DNA of 33,124 bases, taken from the NCBI GenBank assembly GCA_017935565.1, contig JAGBHK010000020.1, positions 1 through 33,124 of the forward strand, given 5' to 3'. The position numbers were made by a program, and so were the translations under genes. This DNA is from Lachnospiraceae bacterium (GTDB lineage: Bacteria > Bacillota > Clostridia > Lachnospirales > Lachnospiraceae). Shown one piece after another: positions 6,435 to 16,500 of the stretch. The first letter of the stretch is position 1. Each line of letters opens with the position of its first letter. The notes beneath the pieces were generated by a model. It saw only the letters and a list, made by a program, of their open reading frames with translations, was not told the origin of the DNA and searched no databases.

Positions 6435-7814
6435 CTATCTTTTTAACAAATTATTTCCAATTTCTACAACATTTCCTGCACCCATAGTTATCAACAAATC
6501 ATTTTTTTGAACTTTTTTTAGTACAAAATTTTCTATCTCTTCAAAAGTTGAAAAATGATATGCTTCACAGCCTAATTTTTCAAGTTCATCAAGGATGTCT
6601 TTTGAACTAACGCCAAGGGTATCAGTCTCTCTGGCCGCATAAATATCTGCTAAAATAACTTTATCAGCAATAGAAAGGGATTTTGCGAAATCCTTAAGGA
6701 AAGCCTTTGTTCTAGTGTATGTGTGAGGTTGGAAAATGCACCAAATATCATTTACATCGCATTTCTTTGCAGTATTTAATGTGGCGGTAATTTCATCTGG
6801 ATGGTGAGCGTAATCATCAACAATAGTGAAACCGTTGAGTTCGCCCTTGATTTCAAAACGTCTACCTGTGCCCTTGTAACTTTCAATTCCTTCCTTAATG
6901 TAAGTAATATCTTCGCCGTTTGCAAAAGCGGCACCTATAGCAGCCAGTGCGTTTTCAATATTGTGAGCACCTGGAACTGCTAAATTTATGTGACAGACAT
7001 TGTTTCCGTTTATAAATAAATCAAAATCTCCGTGAGAGAAGTTGTTGTATTTAATATTACATGCGGAAATGTTAAGAGAAGTATCCTCTAAACCGTAAGT
7101 AAGTACGTTGCATTTTAAATCCTTAGTGAAATATTCATAGTTTGGAACTGTGGAATTAATTACCAAATTTCCATTATCAGGAAGGATTTCTGTGAATTTT
7201 TTAAAGCTTAATCTAATGTCATCAATGTCTTTAAAGAAGTCCATATGATCCTCGCAAACATTGAGGATTACTGCAGTTGTAGGGTAGAAAGATAGGAAAC
7301 TGTTTGTGTATTCACATGCTTCTGTAATAAGTACATCAGATTTACCTATTCTTAAATTACCATTTATTGACGCTAGCATTCCGCCCACTAATATAGTAGG
7401 ATCACTATGTGATGCAAGATATATATGTGACACCATTGAGGTGGTTGTGGTTTTGCCGTGAGTACCGGAAATCGCTATGGAAGTTGGATGTTCCTTCATT
7501 ATAAATCCCAGTAATTCTCCTCTTGTGATACAAGGAATATTTCTACCTTTTGCTGAAATTAATTCAGGATTATCCTCTTTCACAGCTGCGGTGTATACAA
7601 CTAAATCAATATCCTCGGTTATATTATCTTTTGATTGTCCATATAATACATTTGCACCGGCTTTTGCAAGGTCTTCTGTCATAGCAGATTTGGAATTATC
7701 AGAACCTGATACGCGAAAACCTCTTGACAGGAGTATCTTAGCAAGACCGCTCATACTGATACCACCTATGCCTATAAAATGTATATGTGAATAATTATTT
7801 ATATTTGAATCCAT
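6435..7814 (-). CDS. murC: UDP-N-acetylmuramate--L-alanine ligase
   Basis: Mur ligase that adds the first L-alanine to UDP-MurNAc in peptidoglycan synthesis; cytosolic, ATP-dependent. Visible: the N-terminal nucleotide-binding FIGIGGISMSG, the P-loop GTHGKTTTTSM, the central NVCEDHMDFF block, DDYAHHPDEI and the C-terminal HTYTRTKAF motif, all family signatures. The 459-residue length from ATG 7814 is normal. An upstream extension to 7865 reads through repeat-derived sequence with no support, so I start at 7814 (MDSNINN); an AAAGG-type site lies slightly far upstream. The gene has its own terminator and a predicted long structured leader. Confidence 0.95.
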   Translation of the reverse strand: MDSNINNYSHIHFIGIGGISMSGLAKILLSRGFRVSGSDNSKSAMTEDLAKAGANVLYGQSKDNITEDIDLVVYTAAVKEDNPELISAKGRNIPCITRGELLGFIMKEHPTSIAISGTHGKTTTTSMVSHIYLASHSDPTILVGGMLASINGNLRIGKSDVLITEACEYTNSFLSFYPTTAVILNVCEDHMDFFKDIDDIRLSFKKFTEILPDNGNLVINSTVPNYEYFTKDLKCNVLTYGLEDTSLNISACNIKYNNFSHGDFDLFINGNNVCHINLAVPGAHNIENALAAIGAAFANGEDITYIKEGIESYKGTGRRFEIKGELNGFTIVDDYAHHPDEITATLNTAKKCDVNDIWCIFQPHTYTRTKAFLKDFAKSLSIADKVILADIYAARETDTLGVSSKDILDELEKLGCEAYHFSTFEEIENFVLKKVQKNDLLITMGAGNVVEIGNNLLKR

Positions 7815-7876
7815 TTGATTACCAACCTTTCCAAATTCGAAAACGTAAATGAGCAATATCTGCAAAAAATGCAGAC

Positions 7877-8261
7877 GAGCAATATTCGCAAAAAAACTAC
7901 GTTTTTCCGCTCATATGTTGCTTCGCAACATACCGATTTATAAAAATAGTCTTATTCAAGCAAGCTTGTAAAGTCTATTTTATACAAATGTGCATTGCTA
8001 GATATCAGAGCAATATTCGCAAAAAAACTACGTTTTTTCGCTCATATGTTGCTTCGCAACATACCGATTTATAAAAACAGTCTTATTCAAGCGAGCTTGA
8101 TAATCCTGTTTTATATAAATGTGCATTGCTAGATATCAGAGCAATATTCGCAAAAAAACTACGTTTTTTCGCTCATATGTTGCTTCGCAACATACCAATT
8201 TGTAAAAATATCCTTTATCAAGCAAGCTTGTAAAGTCTATTTTATACAAATGTGCATTGCT
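7877..8261 (-). repeat. Three tandem copies of a 131-bp structured repeat
   Basis: Copies run 7877-8007, 8008-8138 and 8139-8261 (last slightly short), each beginning GAGCAATATTCGC and ending TGCATTGCT. A degenerate stub (GAGCAATAT) lies at 7851. Each unit can fold as a closing stem (AGCAAT/ATTGCT) with three arms: a long AT-rich arm with CAAGC/GCTTG at its tip, TATGTTGC-GAA-GCAACATA, and an A/T arm. One long-arm pair changes from AAAATAG/CTATTTT (copy 1) to AAAACAG/CTGTTTT (copy 2), a compensated change. The A/T arm is fully paired only on the minus strand, using G-U pairs. That strand is the one transcribed as the murC leader. Confidence 0.85.
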
Positions 8262-8272
8262 CTGCTTTATAC

Positions 8273-8301
8273 ATTATACTACTTGTGGGGAAAAAAATAA
8301 A
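8273..8301 (-). promoter_or_regulatory. Possible murC promoter upstream of the repeats
   Basis: On the minus strand TATAAT (8273-8278) is preceded after 17 bases by a weak TTTATT. If used, the transcript would carry all three 131-base repeats in a leader of about 450 bases before murC. Confidence 0.5.
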
Positions 8302-8402
8302 CGCATTGAGACGTTTTTTTTGTATTTTATAAAGTTTTGGATGGTTTTTTAGTGAAAATATATAAAAATGGAATAATTTGTTTTTTTTCTTTGTAAATTA
8401 TG

Positions 8403-8431
8403 TTCACTTTTTTGGGTGGATGTGCTATAAT
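8403..8431 (+). promoter_or_regulatory. Promoter of glgC-glgD
   Basis: TTCACT (8403-8408), 17 bases, TATAAT (8426-8431), with an extended -10 TG at 8423-8424. It lies about 30 bases upstream of the GTG start. Confidence 0.75.
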
Positions 8432-8462
8432 TAAATTTATCATAAAGACAAGAGGTGATAAC

Positions 8463-9734
8463 GTGATTAAAAAAGAGATGATTGCCATGTTATTGGCAGG
8501 AGGACAGGGAAGCCGATTAGGTGTTCTTACTTCTAAGGTTGCAAAACCAGCCGTATCATTTGGCGGTAAGTACAGAATAATTGATTTCCCACTTAGTAAC
8601 TGTATTAATTCAGGAATTGATACCGTAGGTGTACTGACACAATACCAGCCACTTAGACTTAATTCACATATTGGAATTGGTATACCATGGGATTTGGATA
8701 GAAATTTCGGTGGTGTAAGCGTACTTCCACCATATGAGAAGAGCTCTAATAGCGATTGGTACACAGGTACTGCTAATGCCATTTATCAGAATATTGATTA
8801 TATGGACCAGTATAATCCTGAATATGTACTTATTTTATCAGGCGACCATATCTATAAGATGGATTATGAGATTATGCTTGATTATCACAAGGCAAATGAT
8901 GCTGATATTACTATAGCAGCGATGCCTGTTCCTATGGAAGAAGCTAGTAGATTTGGTATTATGGTTACAGATTCTGAGAATCGTATTACAGAATTCCAGG
9001 AAAAACCAGCGCAGCCAAAGAGTAACCTTGCTTCTATGGGTATTTACATCTTTAAGTGGTCAGTGCTTAAGGATGCACTTATTAAGTTGAAAAACCAGAG
9101 TAATTGTGACTTTGGTAAACACATCATTCCATATTGCTTTGAAAAGGGCGATAGAGTATTTGCTTATGAATATAACGGATACTGGAAGGATGTAGGAACA
9201 TTAGGTTCATATTGGGAAGCAAATATGGAACTTATTGATATCATTCCTGTATTTAATCTCTATGAAGAATTCTGGAGAATTTATACAAAGAGTGATACAC
9301 TTCCACCACAGTTTATTGCAGATACAGCTTCTATTAATAGAAGTATTATCGGTGAGGGTTGTGATATTGCAGGTGAGGTAACTAACTCTGTTATCGGTGC
9401 AGGTGTAACTATTGAAGAAGGCGCAGTAGTAAAAGATTCTATTATTATGCAGGGTACTGTTGTTAAGGCAGGCACTAAGATTTATAAGTCTATTATTGCT
9501 GAAGATGTTCTTATTGGTGAGAACTGTGAGATTGGTGTTGGTGAAGAAAAAGAAAGCAAGTTAGACCCTAGAATTTATTCATTTGGTTTGGCTACAATTG
9601 GCGAAAAGTCAGTTATTCCAGCTAATGTAAAGATTGGTAAAAACACAGCGATTTCAGGTGAAACAACATTAGAAGATTATGCTGATGGTGTTCTTGAAAG
9701 TGGCGAATATATTGTTAAGGCAGGTGAAGAGTAA
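8463..9734 (+). CDS. glgC: Glucose-1-phosphate adenylyltransferase GlgC
   Basis: Makes ADP-glucose, the donor for glycogen synthesis. The nucleotidyltransferase signature [10 protein letters not shown] (about residues 10-19), the [19 protein letters not shown] block, the ADP-glucose region with [12 protein letters not shown], and a C-terminal left-handed beta-helix of hexapeptide repeats (from about 290) are all present. I start at GTG 8463 ([11 protein letters not shown]) because GAGGTGAT (8452-8459) precedes it and this gives 423 residues, the usual size. The stop overlaps the glgD ATG (TAATG), so the two are translationally coupled and likely form the mixed GlgC/GlgD enzyme. Confidence 0.95.
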
Positions 9735-16051: not shown

Positions 16052-16500
16052 GGAGGGTAGAGAGGGAGAAAGGTGGTGCTATTGCCCTTAAAAGTAAAAG
16101 AGGAGGGTAGAGCGGAGAAAGAAAGAGAACTACTACCCTTAAAAACGAAAGAGGAGGGCAGAGGAATTAAAAAGATAGTGCCACTACCCTAGGTGGAGAG
16201 TGTCGGAGGGTAGAGGGGAAAAAGAAAGAGAACTACTACCCTGAAAAACGAAAGAGGAGGGTAGTGGGGGAGAAAAGATGGTACCACTACCCTGAAAAAC
16301 GAAAAAGGAGGGTAGTGGAATTAAAAAGATAGTGCCACTACCCTAGGTGGAGAGTGTCGGAGGGTAGAGAGGAGAAAGAAAGAGAACTACTACCCTGAAA
16401 ACCGAAAGAGGAGGGTAGAGGGGAAAAAGAAAGAGAACTACTACCCTTAAAAACGAAAGAGGAGGGCAGAGAGGAGAAAAAGAAGGAGCCCCTGCCCTCC
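16052..16500 (+). repeat. Array of nine hairpin units, period about 51 bp
   Basis: Units begin GGAGGG(T/C)AG at 16052, 16102, 16152, 16205, 16256, 16307, 16359, 16410 and 16461, and each closes with a (C)TACCCT-type sequence 20-25 bases later, giving a hairpin per unit. The linkers are A/G-rich (AAAACGAAAGAG). The pair changes together in the last unit: GGAGGGCAG with CTGCCCTCC. Units 3-4 and 6-7 share a long near-identical block, so part of the array duplicated as a pair. It fills most of the 740-base gap between the divergent pth and SPFH genes. No open frame of note lies in it. Confidence 0.85.

Follow-up and report, generated by a model that had tools for sequence, protein, structure and literature searches.

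What is the tandem repeat in front of murC in this Lachnospiraceae genome, and does it regulate the gene? The window, the whole 33,124-nt stretch that we analysed, is contig C36 of assembly G000 (2.48 Mb in 45 contigs). A sequence-only reading had described three tandem 131-nt structured units in the murC leader and offered two explanations for them, a new leader regulator of cell-wall synthesis or a mobile structured repeat.

A tandem array between murC and glgC

Tandem Repeats Finder located the repeat at 7877–8261 with a period of 131 bp, 2.9 copies, 90% matches and a score of 665, confirming the three-unit arrangement. The features of the locus are as follows.

6435..7814, minus strand: murC, downstream of the array (TIGR01082, 468 bits, E 3.4e-140)
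7851..7876, minus strand: possible remnant of another copy, since deleted (GAGCAATAT...), picked out by eye
7878..8008, minus strand (sense = minus): unit 1, apparent mosaic of units 2 and 3; outer end of the closing stem incomplete
8009..8139, minus strand: unit 2, predicted four-way junction with linker AGATATC
8019..8041, minus strand: arm 3 of unit 2, A/T hairpin between GA and GA (tandem G.A base); coordinates from the predicted fold
8044..8064, minus strand: arm 2 of unit 2, short hairpin with a GAA loop; coordinates from the predicted fold
8067..8120, minus strand: arm 1 of unit 2, long and A/T-rich with a CNNG loop; coordinates from the predicted fold
8140..8263, minus strand: unit 3, outermost, adjoining the likely murC −10 box; closing stem AGAGCAAT..ATTGCTCT retained
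8273..8278, minus strand: likely murC −10 box, TATAAT (ATTATA on plus), found by eye just upstream of unit 3
8466..9734, plus strand: glgC, divergent neighbour (TIGR02091, 469 bits, E 7.6e-141)

The earlier prediction of a murC promoter at 8273 was borne out in part: the minus-strand TATAAT is visible there, but a consensus promoter scan listed no promoter at this position. By eye, ATTATACTACTTG at the −10 region recurs in the congener G005 and ATTATACTACTAT in the congener G003. Since the TATAAT is thus shared in context with two congeners, the array probably lies within the murC leader, and its transcription in the sense direction, judged from this box seen by eye, is plausible. A consensus scan of 7780–8480 listed no terminator. 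No curated Rfam family reached its gathering threshold in the window, and the weak miRNA, snoRNA and sRNA names that came up there were all far below their cut-offs. Elsewhere in the window, an unrelated intergenic array with periods of 51, 103 and 154 and GGAGGGTAG..CTACCCT motifs occupies 16097–16479, flanked by a 186-aa ORF on the minus strand and a 472-aa ORF on the plus strand.

The murC–glgC pair was retained in all seven congener genomes, and in none of the seven was the array visible in the interval between the two genes. Between the final base matched to MurC and the match to glgC lay 235–340 bp in these congeners compared to 652 bp here; in the congeners the MurC match began at residue 4 or 11, here at residue 1. 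The array is therefore not specific to murC.

Fold and divergence of the units

Folded singly on the minus (murC-sense) strand, each unit was predicted to form a closing stem and three arms. Relative to shuffled sequences, the minus-strand folds of units 1, 2 and 3 had z-scores of −1.9, −7.0 and −7.0, compared to −1.0, −4.9 and −5.6 on the plus strand. The fold of the whole 467-nt leader was also unusually stable (MFE −154.1, z −9.5); here only the middle unit retained the four-way form, while arm 1 of the outer units paired across units. Thus, the four-stem junction attributed to every unit holds for units folded singly and, in the complete leader, for the middle unit only.

Of 125 aligned sites, 17 vary among the three units, and units 2 and 3 have compensatory changes on both sides of sense pairs 25/55, 32/48 and 33/47. 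The change at pair 25/55 is a genuine TA/CG compensation, in agreement with the earlier observation that the replacement of AAAATAG/CTATTTT by AAAACAG/CTGTTTT keeps the fold; the G-U pair said to complete the A/T arm on the minus strand is likewise present. Pairs 32/48 and 33/47 are formed in units 2 and 3 and unpaired in unit 1 because the 5′ side of unit 1 carries the letters of unit 3 and its 3′ side those of unit 2. The claim that copy 3 pairs CTTTA with TAAAG and copy 1 does not is therefore right about unit 1 and incomplete as a contrast, given that unit 2 pairs as well and unit 1 is a mosaic. The two groups of diagnostic sites split 7:0 and 1:6 (Fisher p 0.005), which indicates exchange between units. 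From its letters, unit 1 looks like a product of such recombination; an ancestral unit 1 followed by two independent repairs is the less likely alternative.

A dispersed family with a covarying fold

BLASTN with one unit detected two clear, diverged solo copies in the unit's own genome and nothing of length in 60 relatives. We then relied on two covariance models. R1 was built from five copies with a structure from RNAalifold that had a slightly unfavourable covariation term; because RNAalifold on these first five copies returned a different and poor outer stem, R2, built from seven copies, was given a hand-drawn structure. R2 matched 12 loci in G000 at E<2e-7, the three units included and five of the 12 being training rows; the region of unit 3 (8129–8271) scored E 3.5e-23, unit 3 itself being one of the seven training rows. 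The search of Lachnospiraceae that had been proposed as a check on the repeat thus returned dispersed copies in the same genome and, at E<=1e-4, matches in 74 of the 200 family genomes searched. At E<=1e-6, R2 matched 30 of 295 genomes of the order, 10 of them outside the family and spread over three families, and across the phylum it matched 5 of 398 genomes, all within the family. These genome counts are lower bounds, because stricter filters applied in searches over 40 genomes, with 7–15 candidates scored per genome, and some of the matches may be canonical Clostridiales-1 RNAs (see below).

Covariation in homologues, whose absence would have counted against the sequence-only reading, was found in two alignments. 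Among 92 distinct rows, double changes occurred at all 61 modelled pairs and 89.2% of cells paired, with 1099 cells showing two-sided changes compared to 297.5 in shuffles and a covariation score of 0.489 compared to 0.133 when shuffled and at most 0.074 when slid, all figures that are biased upward because related rows had been aligned so as to fit the structure. In a seven-row MAFFT alignment, double changes occurred at 22 of 63 pairs (0/500 shuffles), and the count of further pair types was ordinary (111/500 shuffles). Across the covariation tests, 0/500 shuffles were obtained on at least three of five measures.

The genomic contexts of the family bear on the regulatory explanation, by which three tandem aptamer-like RNAs would sense a cell-wall signal and control murC. 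The position of the array next to the likely murC −10 box in sense orientation, the conserved family fold, and a solo copy in the same genome lying 33 bp upstream of an ORF for a MurE-like Mur ligase (L018, 1998–2149) are what such a regulator would predict. A riboswitch or other cis-regulatory RNA is recognised by a conserved tie to one gene or pathway; the contexts here were mixed, with related elements in all four gene arrangements, antisense to their neighbours included, and the murC array was absent from all seven congeners. Together with a leader free of terminator-like sites and the mixing of units in the whole-leader fold, this makes a dedicated murC regulator very improbable. The proposal of a new regulator of cell-wall synthesis thus found no support, and a regulatory role of the array at murC is unsupported.

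Ends, target duplications and an IS66 partner

The mobile alternative fared better. Both ends lay within 2 mismatches of GTAACTATTCAG in 102 of 146 aligned elements, and these 102 included 37 with exact 8-bp target duplications and 14 more with one mismatch, compared to none, exact or one-mismatch, in 612 shifted-flank controls. Counted against a reversed control in nine genomes, the exact 11-base end TAACTATTCAG was enriched in G133 (52 vs 0), G200 (48 vs 3), G069 (26 vs 4), G149 (14 vs 2) and G032 (7 vs 2), and not enriched in G000 itself (11 vs 10), G222 (2 vs 3), G184 (2 vs 5) or G186 (0 vs 0).

A candidate for the autonomous partner was found in Lachnospiraceae bacterium GAM79, in which ends numbered 96 compared to 3 in the control; Hominifimenecus microfluidus is a further cultured relative in which the element is abundant. 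This genome carries two copies of a 1817-bp insertion sequence with the family ends, flanked by duplications ATTTTTAT and AAAAAAAC and encoding a 485-aa IS66 transposase (PF03050, E 1.2e-42; NF033517, E 4.1e-78). No match to an IS66 transposase was found in the window's own assembly (81% complete). Two other candidates in G133 were rejected: its IS66 copies, with 8-bp duplications in two of three compared, end in GTAAACGTCAAACCA, and a 3.1-kb pair of facing ends proved to belong to two MITEs flanking ordinary-looking ORFs.

The family shares with IS66 insertion sequences and the MITEs derived from them, as described in PMC11946415, inverted ends starting with GTAA and 8-bp duplications, as well as a non-coding, multi-copy and intergenic character. 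It differs in its end, GTAACTATTCAG in place of a published GTAAGCG start, in an interior that forms a conserved, covarying four-way junction, and in the end-less state of the window copies. The window units had no recognisable GTAACTATTCAGAGC end (best match, 6 of 15 mismatched) and no target duplication was found around them, so their membership rests on homology, detected by R1, R2 and BLASTN. Taken together, the dispersed copies, the ends, the duplications and the GAM79 insertion sequence argue that the family is an IS66-type MITE and that the window copies are its end-decayed descendants, in line with the mobile structured repeat of the sequence-only reading.

The same ends also occur around other interiors and in other organisms. 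In G133, a second interior family, CCCGCGAGGTGTTTTG..., is bounded by these ends and, as judged by eye, by 8-bp duplications (L131, L139, L140, L142, L148, L150). The smallest elements, a few tens of bases long, consist of barely more than the two ends (L133, L135, L298, L304). A gammaproteobacterial Methylovulum MAG has GC-rich palindromes with GTAACTATTCAG ends and 8-bp duplications (L209, L241, L309, L313), with 111 ends compared to 3 in the control. A scan of named records gave 119 matching stretches, for a collection in which we estimate about 120 chance 16-mer matches; 49 of the 80 listed and analysed were titled Lachnospiraceae, a count that gives no distribution because it covers 80 of the 119. 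No palindrome was seen in the matches listed from Rhodobacteraceae (L207), Pseudomonas (L184) and an archaeon (L177). Viral contigs gave two matches to the 16-mer, neither with a facing end, and none to the 17-mer; the plasmids searched for the family end gave no match, and three unannotated records matched among the phages searched.

Resemblance to the Clostridiales-1 RNA

Clostridiales-1 (RF01699, Weinberg 2010) was listed in 2010 (PMC2864571) without a function; Clostridiales-1 or RF01699 is also named in PMC3466250, PMC7302867 and PMC7682815, and the term does not occur in the searched text of PMC4081043. The RF01699 model found no match in the window array up to E 10. It did match, over its full length and in the sense strand, an element with ends from the same genome (32.9 bits, E 6.9e-6). 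Over 20 loci, 11 elements matched at E<=0.5 and nine gave no match; three exceeded the 48-bit cut-off (L307, 55.9; L113, 54.8; L111, 53.7) and eight fell below it. In L307, the element carries both ends and is flanked by the duplication TAAAATTT. Over 20 further loci, eight elements matched at E<=0.05, none above the cut-off, and 12 gave no match. The element matches listed were full-length and on the model's sense strand, with the exception of an opposite-strand match in L121 (26.1 bits). In the reverse direction R2, which was built without canonical copies, recovered a canonical Clostridiales-1 RNA in L121 at 45 bits.

Canonical Clostridiales-1 copies without the family ends were also present in congeners (L064, 139.7 bits; L059, 103; L053, 91.3). 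Separately, the window's own genome has a canonical copy without MITE ends (L042, 1502–1669, contig C33 of G000; 135 bits). The ORFs flanking six canonical copies had one match in common, an ORF overlapping the repeat. Both RNAs have a long arm with a GCUUGC loop and an arm with a UGAG/CGAA base, on the same strand; canonical copies differ in a further 3′ hairpin and the lack of GTAACTATTCAG ends, and the window units remain unmatched.

The extra hairpin, the missing ends and the failure of most elements to reach the curated 48 bits would all be expected if two hairpin-rich RNAs had merely converged. We consider convergence unlikely, given three elements above the cut-off, matches that run full-length on the model's sense strand (bar the 26.1-bit match in L121), the recovery of a canonical copy by a model trained without any, and the loop and arm base common to both in alignment. 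Common descent, although short of proof, would be the simpler reading. In the literature searched, the family ends and a mobile Clostridiales-1 RNA are undescribed and GTAACTATTCAG has no match; we found no earlier report of a link between this MITE and Clostridiales-1.

Strand asymmetry and selection on the RNA

Several unpaired features are conserved in the family. In 103 of 144 elements, the first GCNNGC along the arm-1 stretch reads GCTTGC, and arm 3 has a GA/GA internal loop at its base in 65/90 and 45/59 aligned elements. At the model pairs, G-U was commoner than A-C (195 vs 125 and 113 vs 86). In 139 of 145 distinct elements the sense strand gave the more stable fold, with a mean difference of −7.8 kcal/mol from its complement. 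Between codirectional genes, 57 elements were in sense and 26 in antisense orientation (p 0.0009), and, as a separate observation, a gene stop codon fell at the sense 5′ edge of the element, where the GTAA end supplies a TAA, in 24 sense and 4 antisense cases (p 0.0002; L074–L130, L314–L373); both p-values are too small because a simple ORF caller was used and several elements came from one genome. The better sense fold and the sense orientation suggest selection on the RNA that keeps the fold. Elements with duplications split 16:11 between sense and antisense, and those without split 41:15; this nominally higher sense share in the latter lies in the direction expected from selection.

Could the fold be a mere by-product of palindromic DNA, with compensations arising by template switching in cruciforms and no RNA function? 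The other interiors with the same ends are palindromic too, even in elements only a few tens of bases long, as are the GC-rich Methylovulum elements, and the stop-at-edge bias is already seen in elements with duplications (6 vs 1). The ends and sequences of the BOX and QMITE2 repeats differ from those of the family. Like it, they are short repeats, and PMC10969869 reports stable stem-loops in their transcripts and a suggested effect on nearby genes; stable folding is known for MITE transcripts. Against this explanation stand the strand preference of the fold (139/145), the orientation bias (57 vs 26), the conservation of the unpaired GA/GA base and GCUUGC loop, and a match to an RNA family on one strand. 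A plain MITE of this kind is a real possibility, though we would bet against it.

Origin of the array

We favour the reading of the window units as an old tandem of end-decayed IS66-type MITEs whose family core is Clostridiales-1-like, and, with their place in the murC leader included, give it a probability of roughly 0.8. The MITE would be moved in trans by IS66-family transposases recognising the GTAACTATTCAG ends, and one strand of its interior would encode a conserved four-way junction akin to the Clostridiales-1 RNA. In this lineage, one element would have inserted just downstream of the murC −10 box, lost its ends, and then been duplicated head to tail at the 131-bp period by a putative tandem mechanism, after which the units would have exchanged sequence through recombination. 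They are now probably transcribed within a murC leader of ~450 nt. Selection on the sense RNA may keep the fold, either because it makes insertions in transcripts tolerable or because it serves the element.

The further idea that Clostridiales-1 and the MITE are a single lineage, a Lachnospiraceae-wide IS66 cargo with an RNA fold serving the element, is one that we put forward tentatively. If so, the fold could keep insertions in transcripts harmless or engage a host protein. IStrons offer a parallel as an idea, an RNA domain that rides a DNA transposon and softens its insertions (PMC4227781); the group I intron is absent from our family, and the partnership of transposon and RNA would differ from theirs in kind.

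An apparent cell-wall regulator is thereby recast as a mobile element, a warning that covariation in a leader is by itself no proof of gene regulation. For an RNA class that had no assigned function when it was listed in 2010, the link proposes an origin that can be tested. Should the RNA fold be of use to the element, that would account for the base pairs that a non-coding transposon has retained across many genera.
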